A DNA stretch of 64,000 nucleotides, taken from positions 62,001 to 126,000 of the forward strand of contig DATATI010000001.1 of assembly GCA_036268875.1 (NCBI GenBank). The letters are read 5' to 3'. The notes below the pieces were generated by a model, which was not told where the DNA came from, ran no database searches, and saw nothing but the letters and a program-made list of their open reading frames with translations. The translations under genes and the position numbers were made by a program. This document shows positions 8,596 to 17,614 of this stretch, piece after piece. The stretch is from Polyangia bacterium (GTDB taxonomy: Bacteria; Myxococcota_A; Polyangia; Fen-1088). How positions within the stretch are numbered: position 1 is the stretch's first letter; each line of letters opens with the position of its first letter.

Positions 8596-10293
8596 ATGAG
8601 CGAAGAAACCACCCAAACCCCATCCTCTGAACACGCTGGTCTGACTGTCGTCGCAGCGCAGATCCTCAGCGCCGTCAGCCAGCACGACGGCGCATCGCCG
8701 TCGACGGCGTCGTCAGTGGAAAATTTTCTCCGCTGCACCCGCGATCAATTATTGGGCTTCGCCAAACGCCTGGGCGTAGGCGGAACCAGCAAATTGTCGA
8801 AGGCCGAACTGGCGGCGCGCCTGCACGGCCTGCTGGCCGCGCTGCCACGCACGGCCGGCGGCGAGAGCACCAAAGACCAAGACAAAGACAAGATCGCGGG
8901 CGAGTCAAGCGGCGACGGCGGCGGGTTTCCCCCGAAGTACGATCTCGGCCCCGACGCCGAAGAGTTGCAGATGCCCCGCCACATTCCGTGGGGCTATGGC
9001 CAGGACCGCGTCACCGCGATGGTCGTCGATCCGGATCGCCTGTTCGTCTACTGGGAAGTCACCGACGCTGCGATGGAGAGCGGGCGGCGGGCGCTGGGCA
9101 AAGGCGGCGCCGACGCCTGGCTGTGCCTGCGCGTGTACGACACCACCGGGCGCCTGTTCGACGGCACGAACGCCCACAGCTATTTTGACCACAACATTGG
9201 ACGCGGCGATCGGCAGTGGTTCTTCGACATCAACAAGCCGACGTCCGCGGCGTGCGTCGAGGTCGGCCTGAAATCGACGGAGGGATTCTTCGTCAAGGTG
9301 GCGCGCTCGGGCCGGGTGGAGTTTCCGCGCAGCCAGCCGGTAGGCGGCGGCCACGTCGAGTGGATGACCGTCACCAACGCCGCGGGCGCGCCGGGCCCAT
9401 CGACGCCGGGAACGCTGCCGACCGGGCCAGCGGCGGCGCCGGGTCATGGGCCAGGTGGCGGCGACGGCACGGCCCAGGCGGCGGCAGCCCCAGGGGGAGG
9501 CGGCGCCGGCCACGGCGGAGTCGTCGAATCGATCGCCACGGGCTTCACCGAGCACCAGACCGAACGTCACTGGGAATGGCGCGAGGGCGAGCAAGCGTCC
9601 TGGCAGACCGAGCTGGCGTCGATCTCCTGGACCGAACCGGTGATTCGATCGACCTGGGAAGCCGGCCCGTTCACCTATCCGGTGCAGTCGCCGGTGCTCA
9701 CTGAAGAACATCACGGTGCCCAGGGACACCTGCACTACCGCACCGAGAACGGTCGGGTGCACATCACCTACGGCCCTTGGCAAGTGGTCATCCGCGGCCT
9801 GGGCGCCCGCGCCGAGCGGCGGGTGCTGGCGACCTGGCAGGTGACGCACAGCTGGTCGACGGTGGCGGCGCGCGAGAGCACGCCGGTGACCTGGCGGCCG
9901 GTGGGGCCCGGCGCATCGGAGTGGATGGCGGAGGGCGGCAGCGAGCGCGTGTGGATGAGCGGCAGCGAGCTGCGATTGGGCGGCGGCTCGGAGATGTTCA
10001 TGCTGGGCGCCAGCGAGCTGCGGCTTTTCGGGGCCAGCGAACGCCTGCTGAGCGGCGCCAGCGAGTACCGGTTCCGCGGCGCCAGCGAGCGCCTGTTGAG
10101 CGGCGCCAGCGAGTACCAATTTCGAGGCGCCAGCGAGCGCCTGGGCGCCGGCGCCAGCGAATCTTTATTTCGCGGCGCCAGCGAACGCGCGCTGGGCGGC
10201 GCCAGCGAGCGGGTCATCGGCGCCAGCGAACAGCACCTGGGCTATCCGGCGGCGATCGCGCTGGCCAACGGCACCGACGGAGAGGGAGGCTAG
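8596..10293 (+). CDS. DUF4912 protein with C-terminal octapeptide repeat, glycogen operon
   Basis: 565 residues, with no signal peptide or membrane helix, so cytoplasmic. Residues 49-80 (RDQLLGFAKRLGVGG...) look like a SAP/Rho-N helix-turn-helix module. Residues 126-250 match my recollection of the DUF4912 domain (PWGYGQDRVTAMVVDPDRL, FVYWEVTD, WFFDINKP), which has a carbohydrate-binding-like beta character. A Gly/Ala/Pro linker and a Trp/His-rich region (about 300-435) follow. Residues 439-549 are 14 tandem units of G-[AG/GS]-S-E-x4. The stop is 5 bp before the branching enzyme start, so they form one operon. The function is unknown; a role in organising glycogen synthesis is inferred from context. 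Confidence 0.85.
   Translation: MSEETTQTPSSEHAGLTVVAAQILSAVSQHDGASPSTASSVENFLRCTRDQLLGFAKRLGVGGTSKLSKAELAARLHGLLAALPRTAGGESTKDQDKDKIAGESSGDGGGFPPKYDLGPDAEELQMPRHIPWGYGQDRVTAMVVDPDRLFVYWEVTDAAMESGRRALGKGGADAWLCLRVYDTTGRLFDGTNAHSYFDHNIGRGDRQWFFDINKPTSAACVEVGLKSTEGFFVKVARSGRVEFPRSQPVGGGHVEWMTVTNAAGAPGPSTPGTLPTGPAAAPGHGPGGGDGTAQAAAAPGGGGAGHGGVVESIATGFTEHQTERHWEWREGEQASWQTELASISWTEPVIRSTWEAGPFTYPVQSPVLTEEHHGAQGHLHYRTENGRVHITYGPWQVVIRGLGARAERRVLATWQVTHSWSTVAARESTPVTWRPVGPGASEWMAEGGSERVWMSGSELRLGGGSEMFMLGASELRLFGASERLLSGASEYRFRGASERLLSGASEYQFRGASERLGAGASESLFRGASERALGGASERVIGASEQHLGYPAAIALANGTDGEGG
9910..10242 (+). repeat. Coding tandem repeat: 14 octapeptide (24-bp) units
   Basis: The 3' end of the DUF4912 gene encodes GASEWMAE, GGSERVWM, SGSELRLG, GGSEMFML, GASELRLF, GASERLLS, GASEYRFR, GASERLLS, GASEYQFR, GASERLGA, GASESLFR, GASERALG, GASERVI (7) and GASEQHLG in direct succession. 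The Ser-Glu pair is invariant and positions 6-8 alternate hydrophobic and basic residues. Units 6-9 also show a 16-residue double period, suggesting recent duplication of a pair. Confidence 0.95.
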
Positions 10294-10298
10294 CGGTC

Positions 10299-11882
10299 GT
10301 GGCAACCGGTTACTTCTCGCTGGTGTTGCACGCCCACCTGCCCTTCGTCCGCCACCCGGAAGATCCGACGGTGATGGAAGAACAGTGGCTGTACGAGGCC
10401 ATCACCGGCACGTACCTGCCGCTGCTGCAAATGTTCGAAGGCCTGGTCGCCGATCACATCCCGTATCGCTGCACGGTCTCGCTGTCCGCGCCGCTGATGA
10501 CCATGCTGACCGACGATCTGCTGAAAGAACGTTACGCCGCCTCGATCGACAAGCTGATCGAGTTGGCGGAAAAAGAGATCGAGCGGACCAAGCCCGAGCC
10601 GCATTACCAGCGGCTGGCGCAGATGTACTTCGATCGCTTCCAGTCGCTGCGCCACACCTGGCGCTGCCACGACGGCGATCTGGTGCAGGCATTTCGCCAG
10701 CTGCAGGAGGCCGGGCGCATCGAGGTGATCACCTCGACCGCCACGCACGCCTTCTTCCCGCTGATGGATCGCAACTGGGCCAACATCCGCGCCCAGGTCC
10801 ACGTGGCGGCGGATCTCTACGAAAAAAACTTCGGCCACCGCCCGCGCGGCATGTGGCTGGGCGAATGCGGCTATGTGCCCGGTGTCGACGAGCTTTTGCG
10901 CGAGGCGGCCATCCGTTACTTCTTCGTCGACACGCACGGCATCCTGTTCGCCGATCACCAGCCGGTCTACGGCGCCTACGGACCGCTTTACTGTCCCAGC
11001 GGCGTGGCCGCCTTCGGCCGCGACATGGAATCGTCGCAGCAGGTGTGGAGCGCCAAGGAAGGCTACCCGGGCGACAAGCAGTACCGCGATTTCTACCGGG
11101 ACATCGGGTTCGACCTGCCGATGGATTACATCGGGCCGTACGTGCACCCGGAAGGCCACCGCATCTATACCGGCATCAAGTACCACGCCATCACCCACGA
11201 CAAACTTCACGACAAGTGGGTCTACGATCCGGGCGCCGCCGTCAGCCGCGCCGCCGAGCACGCCATGCACTTTCGCGTGAACCGCCAGCAGCAGGCGGCG
11301 CACCTGCGTGGCGGGATGGATCGCCCGCCGATGATCATCAGCCCCTACGACGCCGAACTGTACGGCCACTGGTGGTACGAAGGGCCGGTGTTCCTGGGCT
11401 ATCTTTTCAGGCAACTGCACTTCAACCAGGACACCATCGAGACGCTGACGCCGGGCGATTACCTGGATCGTTATCCCACCAACCAGGTGGCCACGCCGTG
11501 CGCGTCCTCGTGGGGCGCGAAGGGCTACAACGACTACTGGCTAAACGAGACCAATGCCTGGACTTACCGCCACCTGCACGTCGCCGCCGAACGGATGGTC
11601 GAGCTAGCCCGCCGCCACCCGGCCGCTGACCCGCTGACCACCCGCGCTCTCAACCAGGCCGCGCGCGAGCTGATGCTGGCCCAGAGCAGCGACTGGACGT
11701 TCATCATGAAGACCGGTACCACCGTCCCGTATGCCACGCGCCGGATCAACGAGCACATCCTGCAGTTCACTCGCCTTTACGACGATCTCCGATCGGCCAA
11801 GGTCAGCGAGCCGTTTTTGTCGGACCTGGAGACGCGCGACAATCTATTCCCGCACATGGACTACCGGATCTACGCTAGCTAG
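10299..11882 (+). CDS. 1,4-alpha-glucan branching enzyme, GH57
   Basis: 527 residues from the GTG at 10299, preceded at 10 bases by GGAGG. The reading frame is open further upstream but overlaps the DUF4912 gene and is not coding there. GH57 motifs are in order: HAHLPFVRHPE at residues 9-19, the nucleophile Glu189 in WLGECGYVPG, and the acid/base Asp351 in SPYDAELYGHWW. The latter is followed by the C-terminal helical domain found in branching enzymes. It creates alpha-1,6 branches in glycogen by transglycosylation. It sits between DUF4912 and glgA on one strand with gaps of 5 and 14 bp. No GH13 glgB is present in the window. Confidence 0.93.
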   Translation: MATGYFSLVLHAHLPFVRHPEDPTVMEEQWLYEAITGTYLPLLQMFEGLVADHIPYRCTVSLSAPLMTMLTDDLLKERYAASIDKLIELAEKEIERTKPEPHYQRLAQMYFDRFQSLRHTWRCHDGDLVQAFRQLQEAGRIEVITSTATHAFFPLMDRNWANIRAQVHVAADLYEKNFGHRPRGMWLGECGYVPGVDELLREAAIRYFFVDTHGILFADHQPVYGAYGPLYCPSGVAAFGRDMESSQQVWSAKEGYPGDKQYRDFYRDIGFDLPMDYIGPYVHPEGHRIYTGIKYHAITHDKLHDKWVYDPGAAVSRAAEHAMHFRVNRQQQAAHLRGGMDRPPMIISPYDAELYGHWWYEGPVFLGYLFRQLHFNQDTIETLTPGDYLDRYPTNQVATPCASSWGAKGYNDYWLNETNAWTYRHLHVAAERMVELARRHPAADPLTTRALNQAARELMLAQSSDWTFIMKTGTTVPYATRRINEHILQFTRLYDDLRSAKVSEPFLSDLETRDNLFPHMDYRIYAS

Positions 11883-11896
11883 TTTGGGAGCAGAGA

Positions 11897-13438
11897 GTGG
11901 ACGCTGCTGAACGCGGAGGCCGCCCCGGCGGCCCGCCGCCGCTGAAGGTGTTGTTCGTCGCCTCCGAGTGCGCACCGTTCGCCAAGACTGGCGGCCTGGC
12001 CGACGTGGTCGGGGCATTGCCGCGCGCCCTCAGCGCGCTGGGCATTGACGTGCGCGTGGTGATGCCGCTTTACGCCGGCATGCCCTGGAACGATCTGGAA
12101 GTCCTCGATGGCACACTGGCCGTGCCCATGTGGTGGGGCAACGCCAATGCCCGCGTGCGCACCGGCGTGCTTCCCGGCAGCCGTGTGCCGGTGTATTGCC
12201 TGGAATACCACCGCTACTTCGATCGCCCGTATCTCTACGGTCCACCCGCCGAGGGCTACCCCGACAACCTGGAACGATTCACGTTCCTGTCACGCGGGGC
12301 GCTGCAGACGTGCAAGGCACTCGGCTGGATCCCCGACGTCATCCATGCCAACGACTGGCAAACCGCGCTGGTCCCGGTGTACCTGAACACCGTCGAGTGG
12401 GCGCAGCCGCTGCACGGTACCGCCAGCATCTATTCGATCCACAACCTCGCTTACCAAGGCGTGCTGGAGGGCGGCGCGCTGTTCATCACCGGCCTTGGCC
12501 GCGAGCACTACAACCCGCACGAGTTCGAACATTTCGGGGCCATGAACCTGACCAAGGCGGCGCTTTTTCATTCGACGCTGCTCTCCACCGTCAGCCCGAC
12601 GTACGCCCGCGAAATCCAGACCGGCGAGTACGGCTGCGGTTTGGACGGCGTGCTGTCGCAGCGGGCGCACGATCTGCGCGGCATCTTGAACGGCATCGAC
12701 ATCGACGAATGGAACCCGGCCACCGACAAACATCTGGCCGCCCGCTTCGACGCCCAGCGCATGGCCGGCAAGGCAAAGTGCAAGGCGGCGCTGCAAAAGG
12801 AAGCGGGATTTCCTCTGCGAAAAGACGTTCCGGTGCTGGGCCTGGTCGGGCGGCTGACGGCGCAGAAAGGCGTCGACGTCCTGGCCCACGCCCTGGATCG
12901 CATCTTGAACTGGGACGTGCAGGTGATCTTGCTGGGCACCGGCGATCCCGAAGCAGAACGATTTTTTGCCCGCGCCGAAGGCCTGCGCGGCGATCGTTTT
13001 CGCGCCTGGTTGCAGTTCGACAACGGCCGCGCCCATCGCATCGAAGCGGGCGCCGATTTTTTCCTGATGCCGTCGCGTTTTGAGCCGTGCGGCCTGAACC
13101 AGATGTACAGCCAGCGTTACGGAACGCTGCCCATCGTGCGCGGCACCGGCGGATTGCTGGACACCGTGGCCAACTATAACGAAGTCACCGGCGAAGGGAC
13201 CGGGTTCATCTTGCAGGACCTGCGCCCCGACAGCTTGGCCGACACCATCGGGTGGGCGGTGTCGACCTGGTTTCAGCGCCCGAAGCACATCAAGGCCATG
13301 CGGCAGCAGGCGATGGCCCAGGACAATTCGTGGCAGCGGGCGGCGCTGGCCTACCAGCAGCTCTATCTCGACGCCTATCAGCGCCGCCGCGGCCACGCCT
13401 TTGCCGGCGCGCCCGCGGCGATGATCAGCGCCGCCTGA
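11897..13438 (+). CDS. glgA: Glycogen synthase (GT5)
   Basis: 513 residues from a GTG at 11897 with GGAG seven bases upstream. Residues 22-41 contain KTGGLADVVGALPRAL, the ADP-glucose binding loop of bacterial glycogen synthases. Near the C-terminus PSRFEPCGLNQMYSQRYG carries the conserved catalytic-pocket glutamate and is followed by GTGGLLDTV. The enzyme extends alpha-1,4 glucan chains from ADP-glucose (or UDP-glucose). It is the last gene of the DUF4912-branching enzyme-synthase operon, convergent with the CobW gene 13 bp away. No glgC is visible. Confidence 0.95.
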   Translation: MDAAERGGRPGGPPPLKVLFVASECAPFAKTGGLADVVGALPRALSALGIDVRVVMPLYAGMPWNDLEVLDGTLAVPMWWGNANARVRTGVLPGSRVPVYCLEYHRYFDRPYLYGPPAEGYPDNLERFTFLSRGALQTCKALGWIPDVIHANDWQTALVPVYLNTVEWAQPLHGTASIYSIHNLAYQGVLEGGALFITGLGREHYNPHEFEHFGAMNLTKAALFHSTLLSTVSPTYAREIQTGEYGCGLDGVLSQRAHDLRGILNGIDIDEWNPATDKHLAARFDAQRMAGKAKCKAALQKEAGFPLRKDVPVLGLVGRLTAQKGVDVLAHALDRILNWDVQVILLGTGDPEAERFFARAEGLRGDRFRAWLQFDNGRAHRIEAGADFFLMPSRFEPCGLNQMYSQRYGTLPIVRGTGGLLDTVANYNEVTGEGTGFILQDLRPDSLADTIGWAVSTWFQRPKHIKAMRQQAMAQDNSWQRAALAYQQLYLDAYQRRRGHAFAGAPAAMISAA

Positions 13439-16464: not shown

Positions 16465-16573
16465 ATTGCGACGGTACCGGCGTTGACCGGCTGACTCAAT
16501 TGGTCTCGATCGCATTTTGACGGCGATTGCCCGGTTGCAGCGCCGATTGGCCAGCCGTAGGATTATTATTGTC

Positions 16574-17614
16574 ATGGCTGTCGTCGATCTTTCAGCCAAC
16601 GATGAGGCGGCGCCTGTTGGGCAGGGGCCCGGCACCGGTTACGAGTTTCGTTCGCGCTGGAAGATCGGATCGCTTCCCCTGGTGCACATCGTGCGCGGAA
16701 TCGATCCCGCCACCGGCTCTCGCCCGCCGGCCATCGGCGTGGTGGCCATCGGCCAGATCGCCGTCGGGGTGGTGGCCGTCGGCCAACTGGCGGTGGGCGT
16801 GATCGCCGTCGGGCAAGCAGCGCTGGGCCTCGGCTGGGGGGTGGGCCAGCTGGCGGTCGGTCTGCTGGCCGCTGGTCAGGTCGCCCTGGGCGCGCTGGGC
16901 GCCGTCGGCCAAGTGGCGACCGGCGCGCGACCGCTGGGTCTCATCGAGGATCACGGCCCGTGGACGGCGCTGGCCTGGCTGCTGGGCGGGCTGGCGATGG
17001 CCACCTGGCTGTTTTATCAGCTGCGCACGCTGGGTCCGATCGTCGGGCGCGGCACCGGCGCTTTGGCGTCCATCGCTTCGCTGCGCGATGGGCGGGCCCG
17101 CATCGCGGCGCACGTCATCTCGGAGAATCAACTGCGCGCGCCGCTGTCCAATCGGCCTTGCGTCTACTGGCACGCGCTGCGGGTCGGGCCGGGCATTCGC
17201 GCGCAAGAGAAAGGCGGCGGCTCATTGCTGGTCGCCGACAGCAGCGGCACCGCGCGGGTTGATCTGAAAGGCGCGGCCATCTTCATCCGAAACGATCGCT
17301 ACACCGAACTGTCGGCACCCGACTGGTCGTTGCACATGGAGACCTATCTTGGCCGAGGCGATCAGCTTTACATCGCCGGGCCGGTGCGCATGGAACCGGA
17401 CGTTGAAGCGCAGGGGCTTTATCGGGGCGACGTCGGGCCGGTGTTTCACGGCGACGCCAGCGATCCGGTGGTGATCACCACCCGGCCGCCGGCGCAGATG
17501 TCCGCCGAGCTGAAGCTGGGCTTTGGCATGGCGGCGGCGTTGGTGGCGGGCGCGCTGGCCTTGCTGGGTCACGCGGCGGCGGTCGCGGCGATGCTCTCCG
17601 TCGCCGGCACGTAG
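16574..17614 (+). CDS. Membrane protein with A-x-G-x-x pentad repeat and GIDE-like domain
   Basis: 346 residues from the ATG at 16574 (AGGA upstream); an earlier in-frame ATG at 16517 adds a basic tail and overlaps the divergent promoter. Residues 53-117 are about 13 pentads of the type A-[VI]-G-[QV]-[ILV] (e.g. AIGQI, AVGVV, AVGQL), forming decads VVAVGQLAVG. A membrane helix follows at 131-150. Residues 165-310 (RAPLSNRPCVYWHALRV ... LYIAGPVRMEP) resemble the GIDE/E3-ligase-like domain found in bacterial membrane proteins, and a second helix lies at the C-terminus. The function is unknown. It diverges from the cytochrome gene. Confidence 0.72.
   Translation: MAVVDLSANDEAAPVGQGPGTGYEFRSRWKIGSLPLVHIVRGIDPATGSRPPAIGVVAIGQIAVGVVAVGQLAVGVIAVGQAALGLGWGVGQLAVGLLAAGQVALGALGAVGQVATGARPLGLIEDHGPWTALAWLLGGLAMATWLFYQLRTLGPIVGRGTGALASIASLRDGRARIAAHVISENQLRAPLSNRPCVYWHALRVGPGIRAQEKGGGSLLVADSSGTARVDLKGAAIFIRNDRYTELSAPDWSLHMETYLGRGDQLYIAGPVRMEPDVEAQGLYRGDVGPVFHGDASDPVVITTRPPAQMSAELKLGFGMAAALVAGALALLGHAAAVAAMLSVAGT

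Follow-up and report, generated by a model that had tools for sequence, protein, structure and literature searches.

What could a tandem array of octapeptides, most of them starting with Gly-Ala-Ser-Glu (GASE), be doing at the end of a protein encoded in a glycogen operon? In the window analysed here (the whole stretch of 64,000 nucleotides, with the parts of the glycogen run described below on its forward strand), the array belongs to a protein of 565 amino acids (8596..10293) whose residues 134-248 match the DUF4912 family of Pfam (PF16258, E=5.9e-27), with a score of 94.7 bits against a gathering score of 29.4. Its gene is the first of a run in which it is followed by a gene for a GH57 1,4-alpha-glucan branching enzyme (10299..11882; PF03065 and PF09210, the NCBIfam branching-enzyme models scoring below their cut-offs), with a GTG start 5 bases past the DUF4912 stop, and by a gene for a glycogen/starch synthase (GT5, GlgA-like; 11897..13438; PF08323, E=1.1e-78). 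The source genome (6.15 Mb in 95 contigs) contains a single DUF4912 gene. A further coding tandem repeat is present in the window at 16729-16816, where 15/30-bp units encode AVGQ-LAVG-like motifs within the ORF 16517-17614.

The DUF4912 protein begins with a predicted helical domain resembling SAP/Rho_N domains (residues about 11-81; 8626..8838), in which AF2 places helices at residues 11-28, 41-45, 49-58 and 69-81 with a pLDDT of up to about 90; the Rho_N match, at residues 50-73, is sub-threshold. The DUF4912 domain itself (8995..9339; pLDDT about 70-93) is confidently modelled as a fibronectin-III-like (or Ig-like) beta sandwich. Foldseek searches with the confident part of the model retrieved fibronectin-III domains (best E 4.7e-5), and none of the 50 listed matches was a CBM; comparison with viral models gave generic FN3 matches only. 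A linker separates this domain from a second conserved region, rich in Trp (residues about 326-425; 9571..9870), which was delimited by the alignment of homologues and contains the invariant residues W345, P348, P394, W395 and W414. This region, for which we found no Pfam match, is probably a beta domain, AF2 predicting strands at residues 370-400 with low confidence.

The array follows at residues 439-549 (9910..10242). Translation confirmed the position and the count of 14 units given in an earlier note on this DNA: there are 12 octads, one unit of 7 residues (GASERVI) and a final octad (GASEQHLG). Ser-Glu is present in 14 of the 14 units and the longest in-register run of SE reaches 13, whereas no run longer than 3 arose when the tail was shuffled 20,000 times; at the DNA level, TRF reports periods of 24 and 48 bp. 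The octads had been described as perfect, a term that is slightly strong, position 1 being Ser in unit 3 and position 2 varying between Ala and Gly. The hydrophobic pattern proposed for the second half of the unit needs correction as well, since R, Q or H frequently occupies position 6 and only position 7 can be relied on to be hydrophobic; a better consensus for the family is G-[AGS]-S-E-x-x-(hydrophobic/aromatic)-x. Among 161 distinct octads from 25 genomes, position 1 is G in 146, position 2 is A, G or S in 159, position 3 is S in 157 and T in the other 4, position 4 is E in 146 (Q in 11, D in 4), and position 7 is hydrophobic or aromatic in about 90%. The tail has no match in Pfam up to E=10 or in the PDB at E<=10, and the DUF4912 protein has none in NCBIfam, which bears out the first impression that the repeat belongs to no named family. 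Past the array, many homologues end with a YPxP(D/E) motif (e.g., YPSPDS, YPDPES or YPAPDR), of which the window keeps only GYPAA (10243-10290).

A Pfam-driven search, independent of the array, detected DUF4912 proteins in 39 of 59 relatives. Within the window's family, none of the 16 assessable genomes lacks the array; they include the window's own and G001, whose DUF4912 gene is split over two contigs and was counted. A contig end truncates the gene of G015, which was therefore not assessable, and the family member G002 has no DUF4912 gene. Profile searches also detected the array in two genomes of another Myxococcota family (G391 and G115) and in five genomes of the phylum of G411 (Methylomirabilota/Rokubacteria), and three genomes of one Planctomycetota class encode it too, which makes three phyla according to the assignments in the MAG records, from which the phylum labels are taken. 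Most other DUF4912 proteins of Myxococcota lack the array, though they are also encoded beside GH57, and end otherwise, for instance with a second beta-like domain. Unit numbers, counted by regular expression with a few false ends included, are 13-15 in most of the window's family (5 in G006 and 11 in G008) and about 4-16 elsewhere.

Independent GASE-repeat proteins could be dismissed: tail-only profile matches in 379 Myxococcota genomes (in G114, G385, G208, G267, G326, G348, G046 and G337) all correspond to low-complexity or unrelated sequences, and those in the window's own genome are the DUF4912 gene itself and its antisense. The array therefore belongs to the DUF4912 protein. We also rejected the antisense frame as a real gene; long antisense ORFs are artefacts of GC-rich DNA, and it is the repeat, not any antisense frame, that is kept across phyla. 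Four single GxSE motifs, for 0.8 expected, occur in the array-less DUF4912 proteins L124, L120, L113 and L117; they are suggestive only, and may perhaps be seeds or remnants of an array. Another DUF4912 protein of the same class (L118:1-1512) has a quite different tandem tail, made of two blocks that together hold about 20 TPGS[VI] pentapeptides, and DUF4912 proteins seem to have gained tails of repeats more than once. In G470, from the phylum of G411, a contig of 6.9 kb (L100) contains the whole DUF4912-GH57-GlgA run with a GH57 80% identical to that of the window, which could reflect a recent transfer or a binning error. In the three Planctomycetota genomes (L105, L106 and L109), the array-bearing DUF4912 gene is divergent from a gene encoding an ABC-F ATPase; an ABC-F neighbour is common to these Planctomycetota and the window, and was set aside because those relatives of the window that were checked do not share it.

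The DUF4912 gene adjoins GH57 in nearly every locus examined. In the Planctomycetota G409 and G518, the GH57 gene lies some 6-8 kb from DUF4912 on the same contig and its product is 67-68% identical to that of the window. In a maximum-likelihood tree of 37 rows, the GH57 partners of array-bearing proteins form one clade (support 100/98, with one label change), which is also recovered as a single clade when Planctomycetota are left out. G002, which lacks DUF4912, encodes only a distant GH57 (41%), and G412 keeps a degenerate array in an assembly where we found no GH57 of the array-partner type. A natural fusion is present on a distant Myxococcota contig (L085:4542-7418, from G050), in which DUF4912, the linker LGASEHLGATERSLGASERLG and GH57 form one ORF. 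A second DUF4912-GH57 fusion, from the same Myxococcota family (L086:5443-8127, G042), lacks the motif, so that only the first of the two has GASE-like motifs in its linker. The common clade does not prove contact, since adjacent genes are co-inherited anyway. A search for a docking site in the GH57 of this clade revealed no clade-specific insertion and six clade-specific positions (109, 157, 160, 185, 201 and 399), including D157, R201 and T399, with a D-R-N-W motif at 157-160 in most members. As one long branch would produce such residues in any case, they do not demonstrate a docking site; they may reflect plain ancestry, and offer a lead towards a putative one.

Taken with the conservation of the repeat, this association leads us to propose, with a probability of roughly 45%, that the DUF4912 protein is itself non-catalytic and serves the GH57 branching enzyme as an accessory or scaffold, and that the GASE array is its multivalent docking or assembly tail. 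The array is probably a working attachment tail because it is kept together with one branching-enzyme line in at least three phyla, and its combination of a short, conserved, repeated motif with divergent spacer residues is what one would look for in a scaffold. The FN3-like DUF4912 domain and the Trp-rich region probably make contact with glucan or enzyme, while each Gly-x-Ser-Glu unit would provide one weak binding site, equivalent to the others and repeated at a fixed spacing of 8 residues (16 in the window's family). One scaffold might thereby gather several branching-enzyme molecules, or several scaffolds, at the growing glycogen particle. The branching enzyme as partner, a multivalent mode of binding and an effect on glycogen structure are what we infer here. 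Non-catalytic proteins that gather biosynthetic enzymes by repeated short motifs or a carbohydrate-binding domain include CsoS2, EPYC1 and PTST, which the GASE protein would resemble in architecture, no sequence relation being claimed. Points against docking include the degenerate array that G412 keeps and the fact that, in other Myxococcota, GH57 works beside array-less DUF4912 proteins, which have the domain and the neighbour gene in common with the window's protein and carry other tails in place of the array.

The strict octad had at first suggested a beta-solenoid, which the models do not bear out: in the AF2 model of the full protein (19 homologues), the tail has a pLDDT of about 30 and is devoid of secondary structure, and the tail modelled alone (22 homologues) has a mean pLDDT of 43 and a pTM of 0.11, with neither strands nor helices. 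Although these alignments are shallow, AF2 is reported to produce confident beta-solenoids even from random perfect repeats (32 of 78, for unit lengths of 5-30; PMC11795689), and since it over-predicts solenoids its blank result for the tail argues against a monomeric one, a fold that we set aside, neither run having given confidently stacked strands. Such an unfolded model is as expected for a tail that may fold only on a partner or never.

In the best surviving alternative, two octads would form one 16-residue coil or hairpin of a self-assembling beta structure, and copies would stack from one molecule to the next to give a fibre or shell on which glycogen synthesis is organised; monomer prediction would then fail because the array folds only on assembly. 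We regard this as somewhat unlikely, even though the repeat itself has features that speak for it. In the window's family, octads of the type x-R-(L/M/F)-(R/G) tend to alternate with octads of the type R-x-(aromatic/L)-(small/hydrophobic), and because two octad types alternate the true period there is 16 residues. The lag test took in eight genomes of the family, each from a different genus apart from two of g2/g6-type lineages. Alternate octads resemble each other in their variable residues far more than expected (3.61, against 0.42 when shuffled; 0/500 shuffles), and neighbouring octads less than expected (-0.59, against 0.42; p_le 0.022). The clearest stretch corresponds to units 6-9 (10030..10125), where we confirm the previously noticed repetition of a 16-residue pair (GASERLLS GASEYRFR, then GASERLLS GASEYQFR). 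Six codons distinguish the two 48-bp copies, and five of these differences are synonymous, which indicates that this duplication is old and selected rather than the product of fresh slippage. More generally, lag 2 brings no rise in codon identity at the GASE positions (0.60 versus 0.57, p 0.12), so that recent 48-bp copying alone does not explain the alternation. The motifs are spaced by 8 residues in 236 of 277 steps, and by 16 where one motif is degenerate. Such strict spacing, together with the alternation, exceeds the needs of independent motifs in a floppy tail and hints at ordered assembly. Against it, alternation is missing in the distant array-bearing members subjected to the lag test, units of 6 and 7 residues break the register, Arg and Glu are abundant, the polarity of positions 5-6 is loose, and AF2 gives neither strands nor solenoid despite its bias towards the latter.

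Comparison with known beta-rolls is similarly divided. The RTX beta-roll is built of nonapeptides (GGxGxDxUx) in which, as in the GASE unit, a Gly-rich turn with an acidic residue precedes a hydrophobic strand position, and its two units per coil would match the 16-residue period. The GASE unit differs by having eight residues instead of nine, Glu instead of Asp and a single Gly; its tail has no Pfam match to RTX and is encoded in an operon of cytoplasmic enzymes. Silk-inspired octapeptides, (GAGAGAGX)n with Glu or Gln as last residue, provide a precedent of the same unit length: they form beta-rolls of two oppositely oriented sheets that stack into fibrils, possibly via Glu, and for which templated folding has been proposed (PMC5388506). 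The likeness lies in an 8-residue, Gly/Ala-rich unit with a polar residue. These designed sequences simply alternate Gly and Ala, whereas GASE units have four variable residues, among which Arg and bulky hydrophobics are frequent, and no roll appears in the AF2 models of their tail.

The remaining alternatives make different predictions about which residues should be constrained. We counted codon differences between close relatives in alignable octads, in pairs that are not independent and whose contrast is nonetheless large: synonymous and nonsynonymous differences number 44 and 2 at the G codon, 33 and 0 at the S codon, 34 and 6 at the E codon, 23 and 13 at position 2, and 122 and 111 at positions 5-8 together. 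Since synonymous codons drift freely, the constraint acts on the protein and not on DNA or RNA, which also disposes of an RNA-level function of the GC-rich repeats.

This distribution of constraint makes direct glucan binding improbable. In that case, positions 5-8 would supply the aromatic and Arg side chains that stack on alpha-glucan, and it is glycogen, not an enzyme, that the protein would hold with avidity. The glycogen operon setting fits this idea, as do the aromatics (roughly one per one to two octads) and the Arg-rich positions 5 and 6. Invariance is a property of G, S and E and not of the aromatics, and amino-acid changes at positions 5-8 are about as frequent as silent ones. For DUF4912 itself, the beta sandwich found by Foldseek is a fold expected of a glucan-binding module.

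Phosphorylation of the Ser residues, which the earlier note had raised and which would switch binding or granule attachment by charge, accommodates the constraint on Ser, replaced only by Thr in the octads (157:4) and free of nonsynonymous changes among close relatives. It leaves the invariant Gly and Glu unexplained, a structural hydroxyl forming a turn or cap would equally favour Ser or Thr, and the neighbouring genes that were examined include none for a kinase; we consider such an array of phosphosites very unlikely.

A lineage-specific, functionless low-complexity tail kept by slippage in GC-rich DNA is scarcely tenable: unit number does vary (about 4-16) and the prediction is disorder-like, but the repeat is conserved across phyla, its units are orthologous between genera, and strong purifying selection operates alongside free synonymous drift. 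The earlier note would have accepted such an extension if homologues lacked the repeat and the tail were disordered; homologues keep the repeat, though the tail has no confident fold, and the note's idea of a regular, functional-looking, multivalent array on a glycogen-operon protein is strengthened. Its suggestion that the tract is still expanding and contracting fared less well, most of the family having 13-15 units that align one to one between genera, many synonymous changes apart.

The DUF4912 domain and the DUF4912-GH57 pair are already in databases, DUF4912 having no assigned function; in a literature search whose coverage left out most subscription journals, a single paper mentioned DUF4912 and nothing relevant turned up for a GASE repeat or motif. 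The boldest interpretation, which we think quite unlikely, is that GASE octads are a new assembling repeat, in which alternating pairs would form a 16-residue beta unit polymerising only with the branching enzyme or glycogen, into a scaffold (condensate, fibre or shell) on which glycogen particles are built. If true, some bacteria would possess an equivalent of the scaffolds that organise starch or carboxysomes. Only if pairs of octads turn out to form a fold that assembles would the finding be categorically new; otherwise, it is an accessory protein with a tail of repeats. The enzymes themselves mostly explain how large and how branched bacterial glycogen particles become, and the co-inheritance of a conserved, non-catalytic repeat protein with one GH57 clade points to an organising factor. 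The array also gives a concrete handle on DUF4912: one can remove the tail, trim it or graft it elsewhere, and there is an obvious first partner, with a natural fusion as support.
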